Below are positions 19,391 to 47,206 of a DNA stretch of 64,000 nt, piece by piece. Numbering within the stretch: position 1 is the first letter of the stretch; every line of letters begins with the position of its first letter. Both the position numbers and the translations under genes were made by a program. The stretch is taken from contig NZ_SWKN01000012.1 in the NCBI RefSeq assembly GCF_005871185.1, forward strand, positions 62,001-126,000, given 5' to 3'. This stretch comes from Limnobacter alexandrii. Its GTDB lineage: Bacteria > Pseudomonadota > Gammaproteobacteria > Burkholderiales > Burkholderiaceae_B. The notes beneath the pieces were generated by a model, which did not search any database, was not told where the DNA came from, and saw nothing but the letters and a program-made list of their open reading frames with translations.

Positions 19391-20194
19391 TCAGCCAACC
19401 CGCTCAATGGTCACTTGCACGTCGAGGCTTTCCTGCCCACCACCCGTGCGTATGCCACGAATTGGAGACGCACCCGTGAAATCTTTGGCCACAGCCAGGC
19501 GGCAGTGATTGCCCTGCACCAACGATTTGTGCGTGGCATCCACCCCCAGCCACTGCTGGCGGGTTTCATCGAACACTTCAACCCAAGCGTGGCTGTCGTG
19601 CTGTTCCACATTGGGGTTGAAAAAGTAGCCACTCACGTATCGTGCAGGAATGCGGTGTGCGCGCAGGCAGGCCAGCATTACATGAGAATGGTCCTGGCAA
19701 ACACCCTGTCCATTTTCAAAGGCTTGCATGGCCGAGTCAGCCACTGTCGTGCTGCCTTTGGTGTACACCACACGATCGGCCACGGCGTGGGCCAAGGTCA
19801 ATATTCGATGTGCAAATGGAATGTGCTTGTCAGAAACGAAGCTGGCAAAGTCGCGCATTTCATCATTGAATTGAGTGAGCGGCGTTGTGGGGGTGTAGAC
19901 CAAGGGATGAAGTGAAAAAGATTGAACCGGGGTGTAGCCGTCTTCAAGGGGATCAATTTCAACTTGGCCCTGAGACTGAACAGATAGCTCCCGGTGTTGT
20001 TGGTTCACCGAGAAGGTGTGCACTGCATTGCCATGGTGATCGCAGGCGCTGTGATGTCTTGCTGGTGTTTTGATTTTCCAGTCGACAATTCTTTGATTGG
20101 TGTCCTGTTGCGGTGTCAGGCGCACGTGCTGGATGCTGTACAGCACGGGCCAAGTATAGCGATAGGTGGTGTGGTGTTGAATGCGCAGTTTCAT
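19391..20194 (-). CDS. Transglutaminase-like cysteine peptidase family protein
   Basis: The 267-residue protein has the bacterial transglutaminase N-terminal domain (IQHHTTYRYTWPVLYSIQHVRLTP) followed by a transglutaminase-like core with an intact catalytic triad. Cys lies in GQGVCQDHSHV (about 166), His in DSHAWVEVF (about 203) and Asp in GVDATH (about 219). Proteins of this type are thought to act as peptidases or amide-transfer enzymes rather than true protein cross-linkers. The start ATG overlaps the alpha-E gene stop by four bases (ATGA), so the two are translationally coupled. It is the last gene of the three-gene module 22578-19391. No signal peptide is present. Confidence 0.9.
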   Translation of the reverse strand: MKLRIQHHTTYRYTWPVLYSIQHVRLTPQQDTNQRIVDWKIKTPARHHSACDHHGNAVHTFSVNQQHRELSVQSQGQVEIDPLEDGYTPVQSFSLHPLVYTPTTPLTQFNDEMRDFASFVSDKHIPFAHRILTLAHAVADRVVYTKGSTTVADSAMQAFENGQGVCQDHSHVMLACLRAHRIPARYVSGYFFNPNVEQHDSHAWVEVFDETRQQWLGVDATHKSLVQGNHCRLAVAKDFTGASPIRGIRTGGGQESLDVQVTIERVG

Positions 20195-21150
20195 GCCTCA
20201 AGCGGTACCAGGAAATCTTTGCTGATCCGGTTGCCCAAATCATTCACGCGCTCAAGAAAGTTGGTCAAATACGCATGCAAACCCATTTGCAAAATGTCGT
20301 CGATTTGGCTGTACAGCAACTCGGCGCGCAGTTTACCCGCGCGGCGTTCAGTGGAAGCTGAATAGTCGTTTCGAATCATTTCCAGGTTGGCGCACACTTC
20401 ATTCAGTGAAGCCAGCAGCGAACGTGGCATGTCGTCGCGCAGTATCAGCAATTCGGCAACACGGTCGGGTGTAATCACGTCCCGATACACTTTACGGTAA
20501 GTTTCGAATGCAGACACTGAACGCAAAATGGCAGCCCAGTGGTAGTAATCGGCATGGGGGTCGGCAGTGCTTAAATTGGCCAATGGGCTAAAAGGCATGC
20601 TGTGAAATTTCACATCCAGCAGTCGTGCGGTGTTGTCGGCACGTTCCAGAAAGGTACCCAAGCGAATGAAACGGAATGCATCGTCTTTCAGCATGGTGCC
20701 AATGGTGACGCCACGCGACAAATGACTGCGAAACTTTACCCATTCAAAAAATTCAGAGGGGTCGCGTTCAACTGTGCCGTCGGCCAACACCTTCTTCAAT
20801 TCCAGCCAGGTAGTGTTGTTGGTTTCCCAAACCTCGGTGGTAAGCGCACCACGCACAGCACGCGCGTTTTCTCGGGCACCTTGCAGGCAACAGTAAATGC
20901 TGGAAGGGTTGCTGGGGTCTTTCACCATGAAGTCGATCACAGCTTCTGCGCTGACTTCGTCGTGCCTTTGGGCAAATGCTTCGGTCAACTCACAAATGGA
21001 CAGCATGGCTCGCCAGCCTTGTTCTGCATTCTCCGGATCCTGCGGAAGCAGTGCGGTTTGCACGTTCACGTCGAGCATGCGGGCTGTGTTCTCGGCGCGT
21101 TCAATGTAACGGGCCATCCAGAACAAGTGGTCAGCAGTTCTACTTAACAT
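20191..21150 (-). CDS. Alpha-E domain protein
   Basis: The 319-residue protein is an all-helical alpha-E domain protein (COG2307 type). It starts MLSRTADHLFWMARYIERAENTARM, the family hallmark, and has RSHLSRGVTIGTM and FLERADNTARLLDVK in the middle. The biochemical role of the domain is not established; it always travels with circularly permuted ATP-grasp and transglutaminase-like proteins, and is taken as a partner in the same peptide-type reaction. The gene sits between those two, 12 bases after the ATP-grasp gene and overlapping the transglutaminase gene by 4 bases. A homologous domain is fused to the ATP-grasp part in the second module (36933-39506). Confidence 0.92.
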   Translation of the reverse strand: MLSRTADHLFWMARYIERAENTARMLDVNVQTALLPQDPENAEQGWRAMLSICELTEAFAQRHDEVSAEAVIDFMVKDPSNPSSIYCCLQGARENARAVRGALTTEVWETNNTTWLELKKVLADGTVERDPSEFFEWVKFRSHLSRGVTIGTMLKDDAFRFIRLGTFLERADNTARLLDVKFHSMPFSPLANLSTADPHADYYHWAAILRSVSAFETYRKVYRDVITPDRVAELLILRDDMPRSLLASLNEVCANLEMIRNDYSASTERRAGKLRAELLYSQIDDILQMGLHAYLTNFLERVNDLGNRISKDFLVPLEA

Positions 21151-21162
21151 GTTGATTGCTCC

Positions 21163-22578
21163 TTATCGTTCCAGTACCCAGGTGTCTTTGGTGCCGCCGC
21201 CCTGGCTGCTGTTCACCACCAGCGAACCCTCGCGCAGTGCCACCCGGCTTAAGCCGCCCGGGATCAAGCTGACTTTGCTGCCAGACAACACGAAAGGGCG
21301 AAGATCAATATGGCGGGGGGCCAGGCCCTGTTCCACAAAAGTAGGGCAGGTCGACAATGCCAGTGTGGGTTGGGCAATGAACTTTGCCGGGTCAGAAATC
21401 ACCTTCTGGCGGAAATCTTCAATTTGCGCTTTGGTGGATGCAGGGCCCACCAACATGCCGTACCCACCCGCACCATGAACCTCTTTCACAACCAATTCCG
21501 GCAGCTTGTCCAACACCTCTTTCAATTGGTCTGGTTTGCGGCATTGCCAGGTGGGTACGTTTTGAATAATGGGTTCTTCGCTCAAGTAAAAGCGAATCAT
21601 GTCGGGTACATAGGGGTAAATCGATTTGTCATCGGCCACGCCTGTGCCAATCGCGTTGGCCAAGGTTACATTGCCCGCGCGGTACACCGACAACAGGCCG
21701 GGAACGCCCAGTTGTGAATCTTCACGAAATGCCAATGGGTCGAGAAAATCGTCATCCAATCGGCGGTATATAACATCCACACGCTTGGGGCCTTGCGTGG
21801 TGCGCATATAAAGCACCTCTTCATCCACAAACATGTCTTTGCCTTCCACCAGTTCAATGCCCATTTGCTGGGCCAGAAAGGCGTGCTCGAAATACGCCGA
21901 GTTGTACATGCCTGGGGTGAGCAACACAACCGTGGGGTCGGTGCTGTTTTGTGGTGAAACCGAGCGCAGGTTTTCCAGCAGATTGTCAGGGTAATGTTCA
22001 ACTGGTGCTACACGGTTGCGGGCAAACAGTTCCGGAAACAGGCGCATCATCATTTTCCGGTTTTCAAGCATGTAGCTGACGCCCGAGGGCACACGCAGGT
22101 TGTCCTCGAGCACGTAAAACTCGCCTTCACCGGCACGCACCACATCAACACCGGCAATGTGTGCGTAAATGTCGCCAGCCACTTTCACGCCTTGCATTTC
22201 GGGGCGGTACTGTTCATTGTTGAAAATCTGTTCAGGCGGAATTAGCCCTGTGCCCAGTATTTTTTGCTCGTTGTAAATGTCTTTCAAAAACATGTTCAAG
22301 GCCTGAACACGTTGACGCAAGCCAGCCTCCAGTGTTTTCCATTCCGAGGCTTTAATCACGCGCGGCACAATGTCAAATGGAATCAACCGTTCAGTGCCAG
22401 ATTCTTCGCCGTACACGGCAAAGGTAATGCCGACCCGTCTGAATATGAGGTCCGCCTCTGCGCGCTTGTTCTGCAGTTTTTCAGGAGCTTGCATTTCCAG
22501 CCAACGCGAAAAATCCTGATAATGCGGGCGAACTTCTCCGCCGGGCGTGTACATTTCGTCGAAGGGTGTTGATGACAT
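21163..22578 (-). CDS. Circularly permuted ATP-grasp protein (type 2)
   Basis: The 471-residue protein belongs to the circularly permuted ATP-grasp group (COG2308 type), predicted amide-bond ligases that use ATP. Family marks include FDEMYTPGGEVRPHY at the N-terminus, LRVPSGVSYMLENR, LTPGMYNSAYFEH, LVEGKDMFV, YRRLDDDFLDPLAF, and VKEVHGAGGYGMLVGP in the nucleotide-binding part. It ends SQGGGTKDTWVL, like its relatives. It is the first gene of the module: a 12-base gap to the alpha-E gene and then a 4-base overlap to the transglutaminase gene make one likely transcript. The substrate is unknown for the family; peptide or small amide synthesis is a prediction from fold and neighbours. Confidence 0.93.
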   Translation of the reverse strand: MSSTPFDEMYTPGGEVRPHYQDFSRWLEMQAPEKLQNKRAEADLIFRRVGITFAVYGEESGTERLIPFDIVPRVIKASEWKTLEAGLRQRVQALNMFLKDIYNEQKILGTGLIPPEQIFNNEQYRPEMQGVKVAGDIYAHIAGVDVVRAGEGEFYVLEDNLRVPSGVSYMLENRKMMMRLFPELFARNRVAPVEHYPDNLLENLRSVSPQNSTDPTVVLLTPGMYNSAYFEHAFLAQQMGIELVEGKDMFVDEEVLYMRTTQGPKRVDVIYRRLDDDFLDPLAFREDSQLGVPGLLSVYRAGNVTLANAIGTGVADDKSIYPYVPDMIRFYLSEEPIIQNVPTWQCRKPDQLKEVLDKLPELVVKEVHGAGGYGMLVGPASTKAQIEDFRQKVISDPAKFIAQPTLALSTCPTFVEQGLAPRHIDLRPFVLSGSKVSLIPGGLSRVALREGSLVVNSSQGGGTKDTWVLER

Positions 22579-22676
22579 AAGTTGTTATTCCTGTTCTGTG
22601 TAGTCATGAAGTAACAAGAAGCATGCCAAGCGCATGCAGGCTGATTGTGTCGCGCTTAGCCATAAAGTTAACAGTG

Positions 22677-35005: not shown

Positions 35006-35181
35006 CACCTCATGTGTTGCACCATCCCGCCTTGGCGGGCTTTCATCCCTTCTTGATTGCTTGCTCGGTTCATGCGAAACGCAAAAGCGTGTTCGCATCG
35101 ATTGCTTGCGCAATCGCCCCTCGCTGCGCATCAAGCGGGAAGCCCACCTGAAATCGGCGGGACGGTGCAGCACATGAGGTG
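35006..35181. repeat. MITE-like repeat, left copy
   Basis: A 176-base element with 26-base terminal inverted repeats (35006-35031 and 35156-35181) that differ at two positions only. Inside are a CCCGCC/GGCGGG hairpin and a 38-base core (35063-35100). A second copy lies in opposite orientation at 35727-35910, and the core is identical in both. No coding capacity is visible. The structure is that of a small non-autonomous element or a dispersed hairpin repeat. Confidence 0.8.
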
Positions 35182-35274
35182 AACTTGAGCGCTGGTGATG
35201 CACAACGGAGTACCTGCTTCGCGCACGATGAGCGCGCTATTACACTTAGCATCCAAAATATTGCTCGGCTCACT

Positions 35275-35703
35275 ATGCTTCGCTCTGCCATTGTTGTAAT
35301 ACTTGCTTCCTTTCCGATTATTTCTGCGTGTTCCGAGTCTGATCAACGACTATCGACTCAACTGTTTATGCATTCGGAAACAGCATGCGAGTTGATATTC
35401 AAATCCCAGAATGCTGTTGTTGTCGAGAATTTTTGCGACACGGCGCAGAAACCCATCTTGATCAAGTTGGCTGAACAAGAAATCAGATCTGACTGGATTG
35501 ACGAGAAGACCAGTCGTTTTCTGTTTCAGGAAGGTTGTGCCCAAGCGGATGAGTGTTTCTATGAACTGAGTACAAACGATGCTGGCGTGAGCGGCCGCTT
35601 TTCGTATCGAATCAATATGACGGAAGGTGAATACGGCTTCGAAGTCAATAGGTCTGGACAGTCGAAGGTGTTCAAGCAGTCATCCAAGGATATTCCGTCT
35701 TGA
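35275..35703 (+). CDS. Orphan lipoprotein between two inverted repeats
   Basis: The 142-residue protein has a signal peptide ending in a lipobox (ASFPIISAC, Cys at about residue 19), so it should be lipidated and probably sent to the outer membrane. The mature part has six more Cys residues and is rich in acidic residues; no domain is recognised. I place the start at the ATG at 35275, directly before the signal peptide. The ribosome site is weak. The gene is framed by two MITE-like repeats in opposite orientation and has no partner on either side, which suggests that it entered as a small cassette. Confidence 0.65.
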   Translation: MLRSAIVVILASFPIISACSESDQRLSTQLFMHSETACELIFKSQNAVVVENFCDTAQKPILIKLAEQEIRSDWIDEKTSRFLFQEGCAQADECFYELSTNDAGVSGRFSYRINMTEGEYGFEVNRSGQSKVFKQSSKDIPS

Positions 35704-35726: not shown

Positions 35727-35910
35727 GGCCTCCGCGCTTTGTTGCATTCATCTCGCCGAGTTCAGGTGGGCTGCCCGCTTGATGCACAGCGAGGGGCGCT
35801 TCCGGCAGGAAGCGATGCGAACACGCTTTTGCGTTTCGCATGAACCGAGCCAGCAATCAAGAAGGGGCAAAAGCCCGCCAAGGCGGGATGAAGCGACATG
35901 AGCGGAGGCC
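35727..35910. repeat. MITE-like repeat, right copy, inverted
   Basis: A 184-base element with perfect nine-base ends (GGCCTCCGC and GCGGAGGCC) and longer imperfect inverted ends. It is similar to the reverse complement of the element at 35006-35181, including an identical 38-base core at 35813-35850. It is followed by 100 bases without a gene, in which the 13-mer GGCCATCAAGAAA occurs at about 35907 and 35988. Confidence 0.8.
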
Positions 35911-36010: not shown

Positions 36011-36928
36011 CTAAAAAACCGTCACCGCCACCTTCAAGGTATGTTCCCCACCTCCGTGCACCACACCCCGCATCGGCGGCACATCCGCATAGTCACGGCC
36101 AACCGCCACAGTCACATACCGGGTATCCGGCAACTGGTTGTTGGTGGGGTCAAAGTCAACCCAGCCCACATCAGGGCCGCACCACAGCGAAACCCAGGCA
36201 TGGCTTGCATCGGCACCCAGCAGCTTGGGTTGCCCGGGCGGTGGTTCGGTCAGCATGTAGCCACTCACATAGCGTGCTGAAAGCCCCAGTGAGCGCAGTA
36301 CGCCCAACATCACATGCGCAAAGTCCTGGCAAACACCTTCGCGGCTTTGCATCACTTCTTCAACGGTGGTGTGGATTGTGGTTGATCCGCTTTGGTAGGT
36401 GAATTCCCGAAAAATACGCTGCATCAGGGCTTGCCCGGCGTGCACCACCTGGCGGCCTGGCCAGAAGTCGAGACTGCCATAGTCGCGCAGTGAATCGAGC
36501 AAGGGCACATGCTTGGATTCAAACCTGAATTGATAATCATACGAAATGGCTTGGCCTGACTGGTAGCGTAATTGGTCCACCAATTCATTCCAGCTTGGGC
36601 TGATCAAATCGTCAATCGGGCCAGTGTGCAAAAAGCTGCTCACTTCGACTTCACTTTCGCTGTGAACTTCAAGATGATCGTGGGGGTAATTCATCTCGAA
36701 GTGATGCACCACATTGCCAAATGCATCGGTGTTGCTTTGCACAGTCGACGGGTTGGGGCGAATTTTCAGCGTGTGCGAAATCAGCTTTTGGCCCTTGCGC
36801 AAAGGGCCCGCTTCCATGCCTTCGCCTTCTTGCGGCTGCAAGATACAAATTTGCTGCGAACATTCCGCAGGTTGTTGATAGTCGTAGTCGGTGACATGGG
36901 TCACCTTTCTTCTTTCCGAGAAGGGCAT
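36011..36928 (-). CDS. Transglutaminase-like protein, second module
   Basis: This 305-residue relative of the protein at 19391-20194 has the N-terminal domain and a complete Cys-His-Asp triad. Cys lies in SREGVCQDFAHVM, His in ASHAWVSLW and Asp in GWVDFDPTNN. The similarity of layout (RSLGLSARYVSGYML, RDYADVPPMRG) is clear. I start at the ATG at 36928, just four bases after the stop of the ATP-grasp/alpha-E gene, so it is likely coupled. No signal peptide is seen. The role of the family is not established; peptide cleavage or amide transfer is a prediction. Confidence 0.9.
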   Translation of the reverse strand: MPFSERRKVTHVTDYDYQQPAECSQQICILQPQEGEGMEAGPLRKGQKLISHTLKIRPNPSTVQSNTDAFGNVVHHFEMNYPHDHLEVHSESEVEVSSFLHTGPIDDLISPSWNELVDQLRYQSGQAISYDYQFRFESKHVPLLDSLRDYGSLDFWPGRQVVHAGQALMQRIFREFTYQSGSTTIHTTVEEVMQSREGVCQDFAHVMLGVLRSLGLSARYVSGYMLTEPPPGQPKLLGADASHAWVSLWCGPDVGWVDFDPTNNQLPDTRYVTVAVGRDYADVPPMRGVVHGGGEHTLKVAVTVF

Positions 36929-36932
36929 TGAT

Positions 36933-39506
36933 TTATCTTCCCTGAATGACTTGGTCGGGCAACTCTGCCAGTCTGAAATATTGGGCACCCACAAGGTCTG
37001 AAACCTTGTAGGCCGTGTCGAGTAATTCTTGCAGCCAGGCGCGCAATTTACGCCCGGTATCAGCCGGGAAGGGAGGTTGCAGGCCCTCCAGGCTGAGGCC
37101 ATCCGGCATGTCGCCGTTGTTGTACACACTGTCAAACAGTTGTCGAATCTGGCTGGTGTCGCCGGGCAAACGATCAATCACAATGTTCAGCTTATACAGA
37201 ATTCGGCGAATGGCATAGGGCGCATCTTCATCAAAGATCAACAGGTCGAGTGTAGGCAACCACTCAAAGCGATGCTGGTAGCGCGATCTATAGGTAATGG
37301 TGCTGTCGGCCAAAGCAATGGCCAAAGCAAGCCCGTGTTCGCCTGCTCGCCCAGGCATGCTGGTCAGCGACAGCAAACAATCGCAGGCACCACACAAGCG
37401 TTCAAGCTGCCTGCCCAGTTGCAAAAAGCGCCAGCCGTTGTCGCGGGTCATGTGGTCACTTTGCTCGCCGTGCATGGCCAGCAAATACAACTGTACCTGT
37501 TCAAGCGAATTGGTGGGCAAGCTGCGCTGGAAACGAACCCACTCGGGTTCGATCAGCACTTTGGCGCAATCGTTCAGCAATCGCCAGTGGCCACTGCTTA
37601 AACGTTCGCGCAATTGCCCGGCCACATTGGCCAGTCCATTGAGCTGACCTGCCAGTCCAACTGCGGCAGGCTCATCTATGCCGGTTTTGTACCAAAGCCT
37701 TTCGAGAATATTGGCTTCAAGTTCATCCTGCGTCAGTGGTTCTGCCGGGTCAAACTCGGTACTCAAGCCTTGTTTGCCACACAATTCGTGCAGCAAGCCC
37801 AGGGTGGTGGTGTCCAGGTACTCTTCTTCGTTCAACAGCAACTGGGCTCGCAGTAGTAAACGCAATGAAAAACTGGCGCGCTCGGTGTAACGCCCCAGCC
37901 AAAACAAATGCTCCGCAGCCCGGCTAGACACTGGCCTGCGCAACGCCTGCAAATCTTTGGCTTGCAGTTTTTCTTTCAGGTTGGTGGTTCGTTCAACGGG
38001 TTCGCCGCTGCGCACCCAGGTGTCTAGGCTGGTGCCACCTTTTTGCATGCTTACAATGCCGTGCTGGTCGCCCGCCACGCGGGTCAGCCCCCCGGGCATC
38101 ACGGTGTAATTGCCTTGTCCATCAGTCACGGCAAAAAGCCGCAGCATCATGGCACGTTCTTCAATGCCACCGGCACCGGTCCAAATTGGCACGCGTGACA
38201 GCGGGATCAGTTCCTGCAGGGTGTATTGCGAGGGTCGCTGGCTGATCTTCGACAACCAGCTTCGTTTCTCGATTTCATCCAACTCCGAGCCCATGATTGA
38301 ATCCATGGTGCGCCCGCGCCGGTTGGGTCCGGTGGATTTGATCACCAAATTATTCAGCCTTTCGCTGGCTTGCGCCCAGGCGGGCGATTCACCGCACCAC
38401 CAGCTGGGCACGCTGGGCAACAGCAAGTCTTCCTGTAGGTAATGCTTTCCCAGCCCGGGCATAAAGCCATGAATGGCTGGGCTTTCCAGCCAGCCAGCGC
38501 CTGGCATGTTTGCCATCACAACGCCACCTGTGCGAATGGCCTGCAGCAAACCAGGCACGCCCAGTTGGGAGTCTTCGCGCAGTTCGAGTGGGTCTAGCCA
38601 TTGGTCGTCGGTACGTCGAATCAAGCCATCAATCGGCTCAAGACCGTTCACGGTTTTCAGAAACACGTTGTTATTTCGAACAGTCAGGTCGCTGCCTTCA
38701 ACCAAGGATATGCCCAGGTAGCGAGCCAGGTAAGTGTGCTCAAAGTAAGTTTCGTTGTAAGGGCCCGGGGTCAGCAGTGCAATGCGTGCATTGTCACCCT
38801 TGGGTGAAAGCCTGCGTATGCCGTCGATGTAGTCGCGGTAAAAACCGGCCAAATGCTGAATGTGCATTTCTCGAAAGCCACGCGTGAAACTGCGCGAGAT
38901 GCTCAAGCGGTTTTCAAGGGCATAGCCGAGGCCTGACGGTGCCTGCATTCGATGGGTAATCACCCACCATTTGCCGTCTGGGCTGCGGCCCAAATCGAAC
39001 GCCACCATGTGTAGCCACACTCCGTTCAGTGGTTCCGTGCCTTGCATTTGTGGCAAATAGCCAGAATGACCGTACACCAAATCGGCAGGCAACAATCCTT
39101 TGGCAAGCAGTTCTCGCTTCCCGTACACATCGGCCATCATCGCGTTCAACAGGCGTGCTCGCTGGGCAATGCCTGTTTGCAGCACGGCCCAGTCAGCCTG
39201 GTCAATGATGAAAGGCAGCAAATCGAGCGACCAAGGGCGTGAGGTGCCCTGTGCGTGGTCGGCGTACACATTGTAGGTGATGCCGTTGTCGCGAATTTGT
39301 TTGGCCAGCGCATTCAGCTTGGCATCGAGGTGATCACTCAGCCCGGTGGAGGGCAGGCGGTTGACAAAGTCAGCCCATGCCGGGCGAAGCACACCACTGC
39401 TCGCCAGTTCGCTGTAGTAAGCACTGGTGCCTTGAAGAATGCTCTGTTGCCAGGGCACTTCGACATTCGCAAGGGTGGTGTTCGGGTTCGCGCTCAAAGC
39501 GGTCAC
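36933..39506 (-). CDS. Circularly permuted ATP-grasp and alpha-E fusion protein
   Basis: The 857-residue protein joins the two proteins that are separate at 20191-22578. Residues about 1-500 are the circularly permuted ATP-grasp part (THRMQAPSGLGYALENR, LLTPGPYNETYFEHTYLAR, LVEGSDLTV, GGTSLDTWV). From about 520 onward the alpha-E domain begins VSSRAAEHLFWLGRYTERA and continues to the end. The domain order equals the gene order of the other module. No signal peptide is present, so it acts in the cytoplasm. It stands between the transglutaminase gene (four-base gap) and the DUF2126 gene (31-base gap) on one strand, so all three form a likely operon. The substrate is unknown. Confidence 0.92.
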   Translation of the reverse strand: MTALSANPNTTLANVEVPWQQSILQGTSAYYSELASSGVLRPAWADFVNRLPSTGLSDHLDAKLNALAKQIRDNGITYNVYADHAQGTSRPWSLDLLPFIIDQADWAVLQTGIAQRARLLNAMMADVYGKRELLAKGLLPADLVYGHSGYLPQMQGTEPLNGVWLHMVAFDLGRSPDGKWWVITHRMQAPSGLGYALENRLSISRSFTRGFREMHIQHLAGFYRDYIDGIRRLSPKGDNARIALLTPGPYNETYFEHTYLARYLGISLVEGSDLTVRNNNVFLKTVNGLEPIDGLIRRTDDQWLDPLELREDSQLGVPGLLQAIRTGGVVMANMPGAGWLESPAIHGFMPGLGKHYLQEDLLLPSVPSWWCGESPAWAQASERLNNLVIKSTGPNRRGRTMDSIMGSELDEIEKRSWLSKISQRPSQYTLQELIPLSRVPIWTGAGGIEERAMMLRLFAVTDGQGNYTVMPGGLTRVAGDQHGIVSMQKGGTSLDTWVRSGEPVERTTNLKEKLQAKDLQALRRPVSSRAAEHLFWLGRYTERASFSLRLLLRAQLLLNEEEYLDTTTLGLLHELCGKQGLSTEFDPAEPLTQDELEANILERLWYKTGIDEPAAVGLAGQLNGLANVAGQLRERLSSGHWRLLNDCAKVLIEPEWVRFQRSLPTNSLEQVQLYLLAMHGEQSDHMTRDNGWRFLQLGRQLERLCGACDCLLSLTSMPGRAGEHGLALAIALADSTITYRSRYQHRFEWLPTLDLLIFDEDAPYAIRRILYKLNIVIDRLPGDTSQIRQLFDSVYNNGDMPDGLSLEGLQPPFPADTGRKLRAWLQELLDTAYKVSDLVGAQYFRLAELPDQVIQGR

Positions 39507-39537
39507 TGTCTAAAGTTTGGTGCCTTATTGTAAATGC

Positions 39538-42500
39538 CTAACACCATCTTAGGTCCAGTGTGATGGGGAACTCGGGCCTTCCACTTGGGCTTTTTACACT
39601 AACTGAGCCCTGGGTGTGGCCCATGCGGAAAAAGCGGGTCAAGCGTCGACTCTCGGCCTCGAATGCATTCACCGGGAATAGGTCATAGTTGCGCCCGCCC
39701 GGGTGGGCCACATGGTATTGGCACCCACCCAGGCTGCGGCCGTTCCAAGTGTCGATCAGGTCGAACACCAAGGGTGTGTGCACGCCAATGGTGGGGTGCA
39801 GGGCATTGGGTGGTTGCCAGGCCCGGTAACGTACCCCAGCCACATATTCACCCTCGGTGCCCGTGCTGTGCAATGGCACCTTCACGCCATTGCAGGTCAA
39901 GGTGTAGCGTTCGTCCACAAAGTTGTTCACCTTCACTTCCAGGCGTTCAAGTGAAGAATCGACATAGCGCACAGTGCCACCGGGCGCGCCTTCCTCGCCC
40001 AACACATGCCACGGTTCAAGCGCACTGAATATTTCTACCTCCACACCCCGGCTGGAAAAGTCACCCATTTTCGGGAAACGGAATGCAAAGTGGGGTGCAA
40101 ACCAGTCCAGCTGGAAAGGAAAGCCAGCTGCCTGCAAATCGCCTACCACGTCGGCAATGTCGTTTTTCACGAAAGTGGACAGCATGAACTGATCGTGCAG
40201 GCGCGTACCCCATTTCACCAGTCTGGCTGTGTAGGGTGTTTTCCAGAACTTGGCAATCAGGGCGCGCAGCAGCAGTTGCTGCGCAAGGCTCATTTGCGCA
40301 TTGGGTGGCATCTCGAAGGCACGCAACTCCAGCAGCCCCAAGCGGCCAGTCGAGGTGTCGGGGCTGTACAGTTTGTCGATACAAAATTCGCTGCGGTGGG
40401 TGTTCCCGGTTGAATCAATCAGAATATTTCGCAGCAAGCGGTCGATGATCCACGGCGGTGGGTTGCCCGCGTGTTTTTGTATTTGCCGGTTTAGCTCGGT
40501 TAAGGCCAGCTCAAGTTCATGCACCTGATCGCTGCGTGCCTCGTCCACGCGTGGGGCCTGGCTGGTGGGGCCAATGAACAGGCCGGAGAACAGGTACGAC
40601 AAGCCTGGGTGGTTGTGCCAGTAACGCAGCAGACTGCCCAACAAATCGGGGCGGCGCAGGAAGGGACTGTTCTCGGGTGTTTCCCCACCCATCACGAAGT
40701 GGTTGCCGCCACCTGTGCCGCTGTGCCGGCCATCCAGCATGAATTTCTCGGTCGAAAGCCCGATCAACCGAGCTTCCTCATACAAATTCGTGGTCAGGTG
40801 CAGCAACTCACCCCATGTTTTGCTGGGTTGTACGTTCACTTCCAGCACGCCGGGGTCGGGTGTCACCTGCAGCATGGTCAGGCGTTTGTCACGCGGGGGC
40901 GGGTACCCTTCCAGCACCACAGGCTGATTCATGTCTTCTGCGGTGTCTTCAATTCTAGCCACCAGCTCCAGGTAATCATCGAGCACTTCCAGCGGGGGCA
41001 TGAATACATACAAGTGCCCGTTGCGCACTTGCACACACATGGCGGTGCGTACCACATGGCTTGCCGATTCTTTCAGTACTGGCGGGGTGTCATCGGCCAC
41101 ACTGGGCGCACTTGCTTTGGCCCCTGTCTTTTGAAGAGCCACGCGCGAAGGTGCAGCAGGCGCAAACGGGTCAGCGGGAATGGTGTACGGAAAGTCTTTC
41201 TTGGCCACCCAGGGTTGTGAATCCAGCGGCAGGCGATAGCCCATGGGCGAATCGCCAGGAATCAGGTACATGCGCTCTTCCCGCAGAAACCATCGCCCGG
41301 TGCGCCATTGGCCTTTGGCCGATTGAATGGGCAAGCAATAACCCACTTCCTCGGTCAGCCCTTGAGTAAATACCTTGTTCAGGCGTTTGCGTTCAAGCGG
41401 GTCGTCGAGCCGCGAATCGAATGGGTCCACATTCACCGGCAATTTGCGCTCGCGCCACATGTAGTACCAGGCGTCTTCGAAACCGGGCATCACATAGCGC
41501 GGATGTATGCCCAAACGGCTGCAAAGCCCCTCCATAAATTGTTTGGCTGTCGCGTTGCTGGCTTTGCCATCCGCTTGTTCATGGCTCAGCAGTTTCGGGT
41601 TTTTCCAGACCGCTTCACCGCTTTTCAGCCAGTACATCGACAAGGCCCAGCGGGGCAATTGCTCGCCCGGGTACCATTTGCCTTGCCCAAAATGATAAAA
41701 ACCACCCTTGCCGTAGTATTTGGCCAGCTTGTTCAGCATTTTGATGCCGTAATCGCGCTTGGTGGGGCCCAGCGCATCCACATTCCATTCTGCAGCGCCG
41801 CGGTCGGTGTTGGCCACAAACGTGGGTTCGCCACCCATGGTCAGGCGCACGTCCAGTGCATTCAATGCCTTGTCTACTTCAAAGCCCAGCGCTTCAATGC
41901 CTTTCCATTGTTCTTCGGTGTAGGGTTTGCTGGTGCGTGGCGATTCGTAAATACGCTGCACGCTCATTTCATGCTCAAACTCAACTTCACATTCATCCAG
42001 CGTGCCGGTAATGGGTGCTGCACTGCCGGGTTCGGGCGTACAAGCCAAGGGTATATGGCCTTCACCAGCCAGCAAACCCGAGGTGGGGTCCAGGCCTATC
42101 CAGCCAGCCCCTGGCAAATACACCTCGCACCAGGCATGCAGGTCGGTGAAATCTTTTTCAGGGCCATCCGGGCCGTCAATGGCTTTCACATCGCTGGTCA
42201 ATTGAATCAGGTAGCCAGATGCAAAACGTGCAGCTAGCCCTAAGCGACGGAATATTTGCACCATCAGCCAAGCGGTGTCGCGGCAGGAACCAGAGCCATT
42301 GTTCAATGTCTCATCGGGTGTTTGCACACCCGGTTCCATCCGGATCAGGTATTTGATACGACCGGCAAGGTCTTGATTCAAGGCCACCAGAAAATCGATG
42401 GTTTTAACCCGACTCAGGTTCATCTCGGCCATGTAGGCATTGAAGGCCTTGCCTGTGTGGCATGGCACCAGGTAGGGCGCCAGTTCCTGATCCAGCGAGG

Positions 42501-42822
42501 CATCGTATTTGAAGGGAAAAAACTCGGCGGCTTCTTCGAGGAAAAAATCGAAGGGATTCAGCACTGACATTTCAGCCACCAAATCAACTGCAATTTCCAT
42601 CATCTCGGTGCGCTCGGGGAATATCAAACGCCCCATGTAATTGCTTTGCGGGTCTTGTTGCCAGTTGATGAAATGGGTTTGCGGCAGCACCTTCATGCTG
42701 TAACTCAAAATACGCGTGCGGCAATGCGGGGCGGGGCGCAAACGCACCACTTGAGGGCCAAGGTTGATCAAGCGGTCGTAGCGGTACCGTGTAATATGGC
42801 GCAGAGCAACGTGAATTGACAC
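39538..42822 (-). CDS. Transglutaminase and DUF2126 protein
   Basis: The protein of about 1094 residues begins with a transglutaminase-like part (about 1-300). This has the N-terminal motif HITRYRYDRLINLGPQVVRLRP and an intact triad: Cys in GSGSCRDTAW, His in DLHAWCEVY and Asp in GLDPTSG. The rest is DUF2126, for example RLTMGGEPTFV, HFGQGKWYPGEQLPRW and DGRHSGTGGGNHFVMGG. Proteins of this combined type occur with circularly permuted ATP-grasp proteins; the DUF2126 activity is not established. The start is a GTG at 42822 with GGGA about 8 bases before; a longer frame upstream lacks support and would run into the divergent oxidoreductase gene. It is the first gene of the module. Confidence 0.9.
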   Translation of the reverse strand: MSIHVALRHITRYRYDRLINLGPQVVRLRPAPHCRTRILSYSMKVLPQTHFINWQQDPQSNYMGRLIFPERTEMMEIAVDLVAEMSVLNPFDFFLEEAAEFFPFKYDASLDQELAPYLVPCHTGKAFNAYMAEMNLSRVKTIDFLVALNQDLAGRIKYLIRMEPGVQTPDETLNNGSGSCRDTAWLMVQIFRRLGLAARFASGYLIQLTSDVKAIDGPDGPEKDFTDLHAWCEVYLPGAGWIGLDPTSGLLAGEGHIPLACTPEPGSAAPITGTLDECEVEFEHEMSVQRIYESPRTSKPYTEEQWKGIEALGFEVDKALNALDVRLTMGGEPTFVANTDRGAAEWNVDALGPTKRDYGIKMLNKLAKYYGKGGFYHFGQGKWYPGEQLPRWALSMYWLKSGEAVWKNPKLLSHEQADGKASNATAKQFMEGLCSRLGIHPRYVMPGFEDAWYYMWRERKLPVNVDPFDSRLDDPLERKRLNKVFTQGLTEEVGYCLPIQSAKGQWRTGRWFLREERMYLIPGDSPMGYRLPLDSQPWVAKKDFPYTIPADPFAPAAPSRVALQKTGAKASAPSVADDTPPVLKESASHVVRTAMCVQVRNGHLYVFMPPLEVLDDYLELVARIEDTAEDMNQPVVLEGYPPPRDKRLTMLQVTPDPGVLEVNVQPSKTWGELLHLTTNLYEEARLIGLSTEKFMLDGRHSGTGGGNHFVMGGETPENSPFLRRPDLLGSLLRYWHNHPGLSYLFSGLFIGPTSQAPRVDEARSDQVHELELALTELNRQIQKHAGNPPPWIIDRLLRNILIDSTGNTHRSEFCIDKLYSPDTSTGRLGLLELRAFEMPPNAQMSLAQQLLLRALIAKFWKTPYTARLVKWGTRLHDQFMLSTFVKNDIADVVGDLQAAGFPFQLDWFAPHFAFRFPKMGDFSSRGVEVEIFSALEPWHVLGEEGAPGGTVRYVDSSLERLEVKVNNFVDERYTLTCNGVKVPLHSTGTEGEYVAGVRYRAWQPPNALHPTIGVHTPLVFDLIDTWNGRSLGGCQYHVAHPGGRNYDLFPVNAFEAESRRLTRFFRMGHTQGSVSVKSPSGRPEFPITLDLRWC

Positions 42823-42881: not shown

Positions 42882-43427
42882 ATGAACCATGCCGAAGAAA
42901 TCTGGAAAACTTTGGTGCGTGCCACTGTGGACAAAAAGCACCCATGGCGAATTGCTGCATTCAGCACCGCAGGTGCCACAGGCCCACAGTCGCGCTCTGT
43001 TGTTTTGCGGGGCGTGAATACTGCGGAACACTCACTTGTGTTTTACACCGATCGCCGTAGCCAGAAAATGAAGGATCTGGACCACGATTCGCGTGTTGCC
43101 CTGTTGTTCTGGAACCCGCGCAGCAATACCCAACTCAGAGTATGTGGTATTGCCAAGCCTGAGGCCAGTGAATTGATTGTGAATGGTTTTTGGGATCGAA
43201 TCCCGGAATACGCCAGAAAAGACTACGCAACCCTGAGCGCCCCCGGGGATGCGCTTGTTGGTGGTGATCTGGTTTATGACTTCGATATGGCACGCGCCAA
43301 CTTTGTGGTGTTGAACGTGAAAGTATTGAATTTCGAGTTATTGGAATTGAAGCGCGAGGGCCATGTGCGATTTCGCTGCGATCTTGATGAAACCGGGCAA
43401 TGGATTCATCAAAACATGGTTCCCTGA
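42882..43427 (+). CDS. Pyridoxamine 5'-phosphate oxidase-like flavin protein
   Basis: The 181-residue protein has the split-barrel fold of the pyridoxamine phosphate oxidase family: KHPWRIAAFSTAGATGPQSRSVVLRGV at the N-terminus (about 20-46), then FYTDRRSQKMKDLDHDSRVALLFW. These mark the FMN-binding strand and loop. It is shorter than typical PdxH and lacks its characteristic C-terminal motif, so it may not be the vitamin B6 enzyme; an FMN or F420-type oxidoreductase is equally possible. The ATG at 42882 is preceded by GGAGAGAAG. It is divergent from the DUF2126 gene, 59 bases apart. Confidence 0.8.
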   Translation: MNHAEEIWKTLVRATVDKKHPWRIAAFSTAGATGPQSRSVVLRGVNTAEHSLVFYTDRRSQKMKDLDHDSRVALLFWNPRSNTQLRVCGIAKPEASELIVNGFWDRIPEYARKDYATLSAPGDALVGGDLVYDFDMARANFVVLNVKVLNFELLELKREGHVRFRCDLDETGQWIHQNMVP

Positions 43428-44798: not shown

Positions 44799-45602
44799 AT
44801 GCGTCTATTCAATGCAGTTATTTTGGCATTCTCCATGTTTGTAACCAACGTGCAGGGTGCATCCCAACAAGCTGCGGTTGAACGTCAAAACTGGAAAATC
44901 TTCTTCGAACAGCACAATGCCGAGGGCACCTTGGTGGTGCTTGACCAACGTGCCCCCGGTGCGGTGTTTCAGGTACACAACCCAAGACGCGCCAGCGCGC
45001 CCTATTTGCCCGCCTCCACTTACAAAATTCCCCATGCCCTGTTCGCACTTGAACACGGTGTGGTGAAAGACGAGTTTCAGGTGTTCAAGTGGGATGGGAA
45101 AACGCGTGAATTCGATGTCTGGAATTCTGATCACAACCTGCGCTCGTCCATGCGAGGCTCCGTGGTGTGGGTGTATCAAAGGATCGGCCAGGAAATTGGC
45201 GAGCAAGCCGCTAAAACTTATCTCGAAAAAGCAGACTATGGCAATGCCGACCCCAGTGGCGGAAAAGACGGTTATTGGCTGGACGGAAACATTCGAATCA
45301 ATGCCTTTGAGCAAATCCAGTTTTTACAAAAGCTTTACACGAACAGTTTGCCTTTCAAAGTAGAGCACCAGCGACTTGTGAAAGACATCATCATTGTTGA
45401 GGCGGGCAAAGACTGGATACTTCGCGGCAAAACAGGTTGGGAGGGCAGCTTTGGCTGGTGGGTTGGTTACGTTGAATGGCCAACCGGCCCTGTGTTTTTT
45501 GCTTTGAATATCGATACGCCCAATCGCATCGGCGACCTGCCAAAGCGGGAAGCAGTAACCCGGGCGGTGCTTCAGTCCATCAAGGCGTTGCCACCCAGCT
45601 AA
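44799..45602 (+). CDS. Class D (OXA-type) beta-lactamase
   Basis: The 267-residue protein has a signal peptide (about 1-20) and all class D motifs. Ser73 in STYK (73-76) is the acylated Ser and Lys76 the carbamylated base. SVV is at 121-123, YGN at 147-149, WLDG at 160-163 and KTG at 211-213. It should hydrolyse beta-lactam drugs in the periplasm. The gene sits in the chromosome among ordinary genes, with no transposase or integron nearby, so it looks native rather than recently acquired. The OXA subgroup and the range of drugs cannot be read from this sequence. The upstream lipoprotein gene is 15 bases away. Confidence 0.94.
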   Translation: MRLFNAVILAFSMFVTNVQGASQQAAVERQNWKIFFEQHNAEGTLVVLDQRAPGAVFQVHNPRRASAPYLPASTYKIPHALFALEHGVVKDEFQVFKWDGKTREFDVWNSDHNLRSSMRGSVVWVYQRIGQEIGEQAAKTYLEKADYGNADPSGGKDGYWLDGNIRINAFEQIQFLQKLYTNSLPFKVEHQRLVKDIIIVEAGKDWILRGKTGWEGSFGWWVGYVEWPTGPVFFALNIDTPNRIGDLPKREAVTRAVLQSIKALPPS

Positions 45603-45664: not shown

Positions 45665-47206
45665 ATGGCAATCAAAGCATTGATCACCGTTTTTTTGCTT
45701 GGCACTCTGCTGCAAGGTTGTGCCTTGCCGCCACTGAATGATCGAACACAGTCGAGTGCACTCAGCCCACAACTGGCCAGTGAAACGAAACTTGGAAAAT
45801 CCTTGGCTGTGCGCTTGGCACAGAATCGTGGCAAAGCTGGCATTTATCCGATTCAAGACCCAAAGCAAGCTTTCGCCGGTCGTGTTGCCTTGGCACGCAC
45901 GGCAGAACGAACCATCGATATTCAATCCTACTTGTGGCACAACGACACCACAGGCACCTTGATATTGAATGAATTATTCGCCGCTGCGCAGCGCGGTGTG
46001 CGTGTGCGTTTGCTGCTTGATGACAACGGCATCACGGGTTTGGACAATCAGTTGAATCGACTGGATCGTCACCCGAATATTGAAGTACGTTTGTTTAATC
46101 CGTTTGTCATTCGTAATCCAAAGTGGCTCGGGTATATCACCGACTTTTCCCGCGTAAACCGCCGAATGCACAACAAGTCGTTCACAGTAGACAATATGGT
46201 GACCATTTCTGGTGGGCGAAATATTGGTGATGAGTACTTTGGGGCAACCGATGCGCAACTGTTCACCGATCTCGACATGCTCTGTGTTGGCGCAGTGGTG
46301 GATGCGGTGTCTCGCGATTTCGATTTGTACTGGCAAAGTAATTCTTCTTACCCGTCGAGCAAAATTCTATTGCCCACCGAACCTACTGTGCTGGACAAAC
46401 TGGACAGTGAGGAATTGACAGCAGAGCAGCAAGAACGTGCCGCGGTGTACACAACGCAGGTTCGTGAATCTGTGTTTGTACAAGACTTTTTAAGTGGCAA
46501 TTTACAGCTGCAATGGACCGAGGTGCGCATGGTCAGCGATGACCCCGCCAAGGGGCTGGATGAGGCCAGCCGAGAGGATTATTTGGTGGCAGAGCTTCGA
46601 GACTTTATTGCTGAACCGAAGTTCAGCTTGAGTGTTGTGTCCCCTTATTTTGTGCCCACAGAGAAAGGCGTGGCTTTCTTTTCCCGCTTGGCGAAGGCGG
46701 GTGTCAATGTGCAAATTCTGACAAATTCGCTGGAGGCTACTGATGTGGCTGCCGTGCACTCTGGTTATGCAAAAACGCGTGTGGAGTTATTGAAGGCAGG
46801 CGTGAAACTGTTTGAATTAAAAAGCAGCGCTGGGGTACAAAAGACCAATACAAAACGGAATTTGATGCTGGGCAACTCGGGCTCAAGCTTGCACACCAAA
46901 ACTTTTTCAGTTGATTCGTCGCGCGTGTTTGTTGGTTCGTTCAATTTCGATCCGCGTTCAGTGAACCTAAACACTGAAATGGGCTTTTTGATTCAAAGCG
47001 AAAGCCTTGCAACCCAAATTGATTTGGCATTTCAAGCCCTGCCGGTGATGGCGTATGAAGTTCGGTTGGATGAAAACGACGCGTTGGTGTGGATAGAGCG
47101 GCAGAGCGGAAAAGAAATTGTTCACAATCTGGAGCCCAAGGCCACTGTGTGGCGTAAGGCTGTTGTGTTCTTTTACTCTCTGCTGCCTATCAACGACTTG
47201 CTTTAA
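45665..47206 (+). CDS. Phospholipase D-family lipoprotein, cardiolipin synthase-like
   Basis: The 513-residue protein has a lipobox signal peptide (LLGTLLQGC, Cys at about 19) and two phospholipase D motifs with all residues: HNKSFTVDNMVTISGGRNIGD (about 168-188) and LHTKTFSVDSSRVFVGSFNFD (about 409-429). Each has the His-x-Lys-x4-Asp pattern. Family members include ClsC-type cardiolipin synthases and other phosphatidyl transferases. The lipid anchor suggests action at the periplasmic face or outer membrane, unlike most cardiolipin synthases, which have membrane helices. The substrate is not certain. It is 62 bases after the beta-lactamase gene and convergent with iscX (stops adjacent). Confidence 0.88.
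   Translation: MAIKALITVFLLGTLLQGCALPPLNDRTQSSALSPQLASETKLGKSLAVRLAQNRGKAGIYPIQDPKQAFAGRVALARTAERTIDIQSYLWHNDTTGTLILNELFAAAQRGVRVRLLLDDNGITGLDNQLNRLDRHPNIEVRLFNPFVIRNPKWLGYITDFSRVNRRMHNKSFTVDNMVTISGGRNIGDEYFGATDAQLFTDLDMLCVGAVVDAVSRDFDLYWQSNSSYPSSKILLPTEPTVLDKLDSEELTAEQQERAAVYTTQVRESVFVQDFLSGNLQLQWTEVRMVSDDPAKGLDEASREDYLVAELRDFIAEPKFSLSVVSPYFVPTEKGVAFFSRLAKAGVNVQILTNSLEATDVAAVHSGYAKTRVELLKAGVKLFELKSSAGVQKTNTKRNLMLGNSGSSLHTKTFSVDSSRVFVGSFNFDPRSVNLNTEMGFLIQSESLATQIDLAFQALPVMAYEVRLDENDALVWIERQSGKEIVHNLEPKATVWRKAVVFFYSLLPINDLL

Follow-up and report, generated by a model that had tools for sequence, protein, structure and literature searches.

A DUF2126 operon with a motif-less ATP-grasp/Alpha-E fusion in Limnobacter alexandrii: a candidate second part of a predicted peptide-ligation system

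This study concerns a group of three genes in a stretch of 64,000 nucleotides of Limnobacter alexandrii DNA (assembly GCF_005871185.1, contig NZ_SWKN01000012.1, positions 62,001 to 126,000 of the forward strand; hereafter the window, whose own numbering is used throughout). The group, here called module 2, lies on the minus strand. Its first gene as transcribed, TG-DUF2126 (39538..42822), encodes a protein of 1094 aa counted from a GTG at 42822; the longest open reading frame (ORF) starts at 42960 and has 1140 aa, and in this longer frame Pfam finds Bact_transglu_N (PF08379), Transglut_core (PF01841) and DUF2126 (PF09899, 1299.6 bits), with the transglutaminase-like domain at the N-terminus (~residues 1-250) and DUF2126 after it. 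The second gene (36933..39506, 857 aa) encodes a fusion of a circularly permuted (CP) ATP-grasp domain (PF14403/PF04174; PF14403 at 465 bits) with an Alpha-E domain (PF04168, 163 bits), and the third, TG2 (36011..36928, 305 aa, ATG start), a stand-alone transglutaminase-like protein (PF08379 and PF01841). The genes are separated by 31 bp (TG-DUF2126 to fusion) and 4 bp (fusion to TG2), and module 2 is therefore likely a single operon.

A second set of genes, module 1, carries the same ATP-grasp, Alpha-E and transglutaminase domains in the identical transcribed order, each as a separate protein and likewise on the minus strand: a stand-alone circularly permuted ATP-grasp (21163..22578, PF14403 at 567.5 bits), a stand-alone Alpha-E protein (20191..21150, 319 aa, PF04168 at 345.7 bits), and the stand-alone transglutaminase-like TG1 (19391..20194, 267 aa, PF08379 and PF01841, catalytic triad present). 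Together the two modules span 23.4 kb. The whole genome has two matches to PF14403, two to PF04168, and one to PF09899. A search of six proteins against NCBIfam returned zero matches. An earlier note made from the sequence alone had described this gene content, the ATP-grasp/Alpha-E fusion, the 1094-residue transglutaminase-DUF2126 protein and the paralogy of the modules, and in all of this the ORFs, coordinates and Pfam matches bear it out.

The two ATP-grasp types were compared in an alignment and tree of 49 loci plus the window, each contributing both types (one genome is present twice, as L099 and L145; L- and G-numbers are the handles used here for loci and genomes). In this quick tree, in which the fused group has several long branches, 50 stand-alone and 50 fused rows form two groups that are divided by a fully supported branch. 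The types align unambiguously over 477 columns at 31% identity, and the split between them appears old and sharply diverged. The types also differ in their ATP-grasp motifs. According to PMC4431377, the defining residues of ATP-grasp enzymes include an acidic residue and the ExN motif. ExN and DDK were found in 50/50 stand-alone rows, and GGYG, HxD (H423 with D425) and NSSQ in 49/50 each, the remaining row having a differing or undetermined letter there, whereas none of the five was found in any of the 50 fused rows, the window's own included. In further genomes that were checked singly, ExN was present in 17/17 stand-alone and 0/11 fused copies. The stand-alone ATP-grasp of module 1 has all five motif sets intact.

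In spite of the lost motifs, the fold appears to be kept. A predicted structure of the fusion (mean predicted local distance difference test score, pLDDT, 87.8; predicted template-modelling score, pTM, 0.88; 42 sequences) had 3n6x as its best match in the PDB (E 6.6e-33, 30% identity), followed by eukaryotic-type glutathione synthetases, glutathionylspermidine synthetase (GspS) and trypanothione synthetase, and the profile of the stand-alone ATP-grasp (A3) matches 3n6x over 469 positions. 3N6X (Mfla_0391 of Methylobacillus flagellatus, a putative glutathionylspermidine synthase) is a solved structure of the stand-alone family and its sequence has ExN, DDK, GGYG and NSSQ; the fused domain of the window is this fold without these motifs.

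Strong purifying selection acts on the fused gene in the window's genus. The ratio of non-synonymous to synonymous substitution rates (dN/dS) was 0.022-0.118, with a median of ~0.026, in 11 comparisons within the genus (10 computable) that covered the ATP-grasp part (466-497 of 857 codons); for TG-DUF2126 the median was 0.035 (13 comparisons), and the values for ATP1 and Alpha-E were 0.020 (15) and ~0.013 (14), with several pairs near saturation at synonymous sites. The fused ATP-grasp is predicted to be catalytically dead and not to use ATP, and the best reading of the fused protein is as a non-catalytic paralogue that has been maintained.

In Alpha-E, E17-R18 and E169-R170 are kept at 93% or more in both types (44 rows each), and the fused form is without other residues that are conserved in stand-alone Alpha-E, including R93, E94, N95 and R97. 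All three transglutaminase domains of the window carry C, H and D: the triad of TG2 was found in 71/71 rows and that of TG1 in 6/7 (C), 7/7 (H) and 7/7 (D) rows, and in the transglutaminase domain of TG-DUF2126 the counts among 101 rows were 99 (C), 97 (H) and 93 (D), the remainder being gaps. In 15 aligned TG-DUF2126 proteins the triad (C180/H229/D245) is invariant and DUF2126 is highly conserved. The earlier note had held that an inactive module would refute it; inactivity is predicted for the ATP-grasp of module 2 only, and not for the module's transglutaminases with their intact triads or for its highly conserved DUF2126. A model of TG-DUF2126 (pLDDT 71.8, pTM 0.63, 15 sequences) had 3isr, a transglutaminase-like protein, as its best Foldseek match and the sole one with E <0.001, followed by eukaryotic transglutaminases. 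DUF2126 itself is predicted to be a glutamine-synthetase-like amidoligase, with which further Foldseek matches of the model, given below, would fit without amounting to proof.

The distribution of the genes was assessed in two genome samples. In the near sample of 40 genomes, the window's own included (16 from its genus, eight from other genera of its family and 16 from elsewhere in the order), DUF2126 was found in 21: 15/16 of the genus, 0/8 of the other family genera and 6/16 of the others of the order, and the one genome of the genus that was without it is only 65% complete. In the phylum sample, an even set of 398 genomes, PF14403 was found in 218 (213 above the family cut-off) and PF09899 in 120; by hand count 125 genomes had at least two PF14403 matches, and 114 of those had DUF2126 (Fisher p 3.6e-78, relatedness ignored). 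Seventeen of these genomes were checked singly, and all 11 that had a fused-type copy had a stand-alone copy as well.

Gene order was compared at the best 80 of at least 592 relatives from a scan of named species; by title the 80 include Burkholderiales, Pseudomonas, Marinobacter, Serratia, Azospirillaceae, Verrucomicrobia, Planctomycetes, Fibrobacteres and Desulforhopalus, and many of them are metagenome bins. TG-DUF2126, fusion and TG2 follow each other on one strand at 66 of the 80 loci. Since this order recurs so often and the Pfam cut-offs are exceeded widely, the gene set is real and far beyond chance. At seven loci the fusion is present without a TG2 call, five of them ending at a contig edge in or at the fusion, and at another seven there is no fusion within 3 kb downstream: at three it lies elsewhere in the stretch (L143, L171, L180), at two the contig ends (L132, L181), and at two (L130, L166) space is available and the fusion absent. 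A second set of 20 regions was picked by hand and is biased by that choice; in it 18 regions contain the three genes of module 2, 16 of them ordered as in the window, and in 18 the stand-alone ATP-grasp is part of the same stretch. In L088, L089 and L101, stand-alone ATP-grasp, Alpha-E, TG-DUF2126, fusion and TG2 are consecutive, as they are, with TG1 added, in L094, and the row of L088 ends with Anbu. In two members of the order (L092, L093) Anbu accompanies the stand-alone ATP-grasp, Alpha-E and TG-DUF2126, with neither fusion nor TG2 present, which is a minimal DUF2126 version of the locus.

Regulation was approached by scanning the 400 bp upstream plus 60 bp of the genes for sigma54-type sites that differ from TGGCACN5TTGCW at no more than one position, at loci that include close relatives and one genome twice. 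Genes heading a row had such a site in 9/45 cases for ATP-grasp and 21/75 for DUF2126, compared with 50/3000 random pieces of the same loci; for internal genes the counts were 1/6 and 1/24. This excess fits published control by NtrC. In Burkholderia cenocepacia H111, expression of the homologous cluster I35_5080-83 (DUF404/407, DUF403 and two transglutaminase-like genes, one of them large) was lowered 6- to 9-fold by mutation of ntrC, and the cluster is among the common sigma54/NtrC targets (PMC5491218), and my guess is that the large transglutaminase-like gene is TG-DUF2126. In Pseudomonas putida, Anbu and ATP-grasp genes were up on nitrate compared with ammonium (PMC8050072). In the window, a putative -24/-12 element (22613..22628, minus strand, TGGCATGCTTCTTGTT, two mismatches) lies 35-50 bp upstream of module 1; it was found at the same place in 11 loci of the genus, the window's own included, with a one-mismatch site in four more and a perfect match upstream of module 1 in three other genera of the family. 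Two of five loci of the order that were compared (L042, L045) had no module 1 site under three mismatches. A one-mismatch site upstream of module 2 (42963-42978) was rejected, as it recurs with at most two mismatches in only 2/11 other loci of the genus and lies inside a divergent oxidase-like ORF. Since the whole window holds 53 sites with at most two mismatches where 69 would be expected, raw counts are uninformative, and only upstream placement across loci counts.

The earlier note had ranked the locus as the best candidate in the window for an undescribed system. This does not hold for the system as such, which is already published: the core set of ATP-grasp, Alpha-E and transglutaminase genes was published with Anbu as a predicted system of peptide synthesis or tagging (Iyer 2009, via PMC5666114, PMC6376114 and PMC3597751). 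DUF2126 has its own Pfam family, with matches in 120/398 genomes, and its conserved operon recurs in several phyla. A role of the Anbu operon in peptide synthesis or tagging is credited to Iyer 2009 by PMC5666114 and PMC6376114, the former of which argues against such a role for Anbu, and PMC3597751 summarises the same domains as a peptide synthesis/modification system. The ATP-grasp of Yersinia bercovieri showed ATP-dependent phosphate release (PMC6376114). The window shares the CP-ATP-grasp and Alpha-E domains (in both modules) and linked transglutaminases with the system of Iyer 2009, and module 1 has the order ATP-grasp, Alpha-E, transglutaminase of the Anbu operons of Y. bercovieri and Pseudomonas; it differs in that neither this genome nor its genus has an Anbu match, and the Anbu papers, in the parts drawn on, mention neither DUF2126 nor the fusion. 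The RloABC / RimK-RimB polyglutamylation systems (PMC12239564) share the logic of ATP-grasp, transglutaminase-like protein and protease; in RloABC the transglutaminase, RloB, is inactive and has transmembrane helices, and RloC is similar to RimK, whereas the window has intact transglutaminase triads and an ATP-grasp of permuted glutathione-synthetase type. DUF2126 was named in no paper that a literature search found, and a search on inactive or degenerate ATP-grasp or permuted GS gave no match. What looks new here is the relation of the modules: neither the fused, motif-less copy nor its link to the intact one was found described in the literature searched, Iyer 2009 itself lying outside that search. 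The abstract of the 2009 study by Iyer, Abhiman, Burroughs and Aravind (Mol BioSyst 5:1636) reportedly counts a peptidase of the NTN-hydrolase type and a circularly permuted GS-like ligase among the parts of the system as well.

Because the fused ATP-grasp is motif-less in every copy examined and yet under strong selection, a single machine in two parts seems a better description of the modules than two pathways. I put at about even the chance that module 2 represents the conserved DUF2126 wing of the known CP-ATP-grasp/Alpha-E/transglutaminase peptide-ligation system, a wing that probably works together with module 1. The partnership, chemistry and type of substrate that I infer would be as follows. 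The stand-alone ATP-grasp of module 1, which has the fold of eukaryotic-type glutathione synthetase and glutathionylspermidine synthase, would activate a carboxylate with ATP and join it to an amine or amino acid. The glutamine-synthetase-like DUF2126 protein, with its own transglutaminase/cysteine-peptidase domain, would make or edit a second amide bond in the same product or tag. The fused ATP-grasp/Alpha-E protein would not use ATP and would serve as a conserved non-catalytic partner that holds the substrate, acts as a scaffold or regulates; peptides would be cleaved or transferred by the separate transglutaminases, and the set would be turned on by nitrogen limitation via sigma54/NtrC in many lineages. 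The two-module reading would give way to one old system, in which an active ATP-grasp module was joined by a DUF2126 operon whose ATP-grasp is probably dead and yet has been kept.

Several observations weigh against this reading. In the window 13.4 kb separate the modules, and a stand-alone ATP-grasp was found in the same stretch at only 36 of the best 80 loci (19 on the same strand, 17 on the opposite one). Fusion and DUF2126 are not obligate partners: 11 genomes of the phylum sample have at least two PF14403 matches and no DUF2126 match, each with one stand-alone and one fused-type copy (the fused-type frames have at least 811 aa, and L218 is without the Alpha-E part by tblastn), and six have DUF2126 with a single PF14403 match of the stand-alone type (two of them, G136 and G304, have a partial or fragmented DUF2126 match). 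Module 2 has no conserved sigma54-type site in the window's genus. For DUF2126, glutamine synthetases and GmaS appeared among the Foldseek matches only weakly (E 0.02-0.1, TM to target 0.22-0.31), a profile search of PDB sequences gave no glutamine synthetase chain, and hhalign against E. coli GlnA gave no match. The fused ATP-grasp retains D145 in 48/50 and K365 in 29/50 rows, and the E of ExN survives in a few copies (L106, as E158, and L210), so that it may still bind a nucleotide. As hhalign of the stand-alone ATP-grasp profile against E. coli GspS gave no match, the assignment of ExN is founded on the motif as described in PMC4431377 and on fold matches, and not on superposition of residues. 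Finally, no stable specific complex was detected with Anbu as bait when the Anbu operon was co-expressed (PMC6376114), and the literature searched assigns the system no substrate, product or activity. The wider proposal, that the fused protein is a dedicated pseudo-ligase across several phyla, a substrate-holding or regulatory partner of the active ATP-grasp and, where present, of DUF2126 in a nitrogen-starvation peptide-ligation machine of an active and a dead copy, is put forward tentatively, at somewhat less than even odds.

Whether the product would be a protein tag or a small peptide metabolite turns in part on the neighbouring peptidases and carriers. By BLAST, Anbu was found in 6/20 of the picked regions and in one of the best 80 loci (L143), and it is therefore not a fixed neighbour of DUF2126. 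A model built from six Anbu proteins and run on the 40 relatives matched 0/16 genomes of the window's genus, its own included, and 12/24 relatives outside it at E values up to about 1e-90 (give or take a factor of two), four of these 12 having contributed to the model. The same 12, and no others outside the genus, have PF14403 above the cut-off (the match in G035 is weak and partial), and in 11 of them Anbu lies within ~10 kb of the ATP-grasp, the exception being G027, where it is on a separate contig. As all 16 genomes of the genus have ATP-grasp modules, it appears from these matches that the genus has lost Anbu while keeping them. PF00227 is unsafe as a test for Anbu, since it missed the copies seen by BLAST in L092 and L093. 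Used alone it misses Anbu in G032 and G038. The genome's one PF00227 match, on another contig, was taken for HslV.

Other neighbours recur at some loci. A zinc-ribbon metallopeptidase, Peptidase_Mx (PF15887, identified by a Pfam run on the copy in L095), was found in 11/101 sequences (100 loci and the window; L095, L096, L106, L112, L117, L119, L124, L128, L135, L149 and L152), in 10 of them within 300 bp of a module gene, and it is possibly an alternative to Anbu; the window's own genome had no match to it. A RidA/YjgF-like gene follows TG2 within 400 bp at 12 loci, all Comamonadaceae by title or genus (L113, L116, L118, L125, L129, L134, L137, L142, L145, L158, L164 and L184), and three additional copies lie 2.4-2.6 kb from the ATP-grasp, which suggests a reactive imine or enamine in the chemistry. 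The earlier note had also proposed a search for a small carrier gene in relatives. No small ORF (at least 40 aa, within 4 kb) was common to the loci and thus no universal candidate emerged: the top clusters cover at most 17 loci and, besides the RidA-like and zinc-peptidase neighbours, the most recurrent ones look like mostly shadow ORFs or genes of close relatives. A carrier gene could lie away from the locus.

That the system makes a small peptide metabolite, for nitrogen storage or signalling, and not a protein tag is somewhat unlikely, though it has several points in its favour: the kinship of the ATP-grasp fold to glutathione-type ligases, the nitrogen control, the lack of an Anbu or Peptidase_Mx match in this genome, and the lack of a universal small carrier ORF. 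It is opposed by the presence of Anbu in 12/12 relatives outside the genus that have the ATP-grasp and of Peptidase_Mx beside some loci, which suggests that a peptidase acts on the product, and by the linked gene clusters, among which no transporter or tailoring gene was prominent.

The proposed dead partner could instead be a divergent active enzyme with another metal arrangement, nucleotide or reaction. The strong purifying selection would agree with this, as would the retained D145 and K365 and the pattern of replacements at the ExN site, where R stands for N in 40/50 and Q for R162 in 44/50 fused copies, and the replacing signature frequently reads (D/Q)RTQAPSGxGY. I regard this as unlikely, given that the glycine-rich loop, HxD, NSSQ and DDK are lost too and that the fused type has diverged more quickly than the stand-alone one: mean identity among loci is 44% compared with 60%, and is lower for the fused type in 1195/1225 pairs.

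The earlier note had interpreted the modules as acting on separate substrates or in a two-stage pathway. On this view they would be two independent and catalytically active pathways with different substrates. The old paralogy with its two separated groups would allow this, as would the distance between the modules in the window, the conserved sigma54-type site of the genus at module 1 only, and the 44 of the best 80 loci that have no module 1 ATP-grasp in the stretch. It is nevertheless a poor fit and quite improbable, since the fused copy is without the five motif sets in every aligned row and without ExN in the 11 further copies, all 11 singly checked genomes of the fused type also have the stand-alone copy, and the two types frequently share loci in other genomes. 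Redundant copies, which the earlier note had named as a finding that would refute it, were rejected on the old, sharply diverged split, the motif differences and dN/dS. That module 2 is a decaying relic, as the motif loss and the loss of Anbu in the genus might suggest, was rejected as barely credible given its open frames, the median dN/dS of its fusion and of TG-DUF2126 within the genus, and identical motif losses across phyla.

The surroundings of the modules hold some further features. The genes between them include recJ, TatD and a ComEC-like gene, and from a reading of the translations prfB- and lysS-like genes appear to lie there as well. Between lysS and module 2 there is an inverted repeat of 148 nt (arms 35015-35162 and 35751-35898, 89% complementary), whose arms enclose 588 bp with an orphan ORF of 174 aa (35179-35703) that has no Pfam match. 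Part of the arm has 13 matches in the genome at 75-100%, including both arms in the window, and the repeat looks like a dispersed repeat or a small non-autonomous element. On the far side of module 2, 44799-45602 encodes a protein of 267 aa with a penicillin-binding transpeptidase domain and a start like that of a signal peptide, which to my reading resembles a class D beta-lactamase and adjoins a PLD-family protein (45665-47206).

The system is widespread in bacteria, and the literature searched still gives no substrate for it. If the only ATP-dependent enzyme of module 2 is DUF2126, accompanied by a dead partner, single and double deletions of the modules would be predicted to have sharply different outcomes, and a second ATP-grasp in other genomes should not be taken as evidence of a second ligation step. 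Nitrogen limitation is the condition in which the product would be expected, and the window's genus, which has both modules and no Anbu, would offer a natural test of what Anbu contributes.

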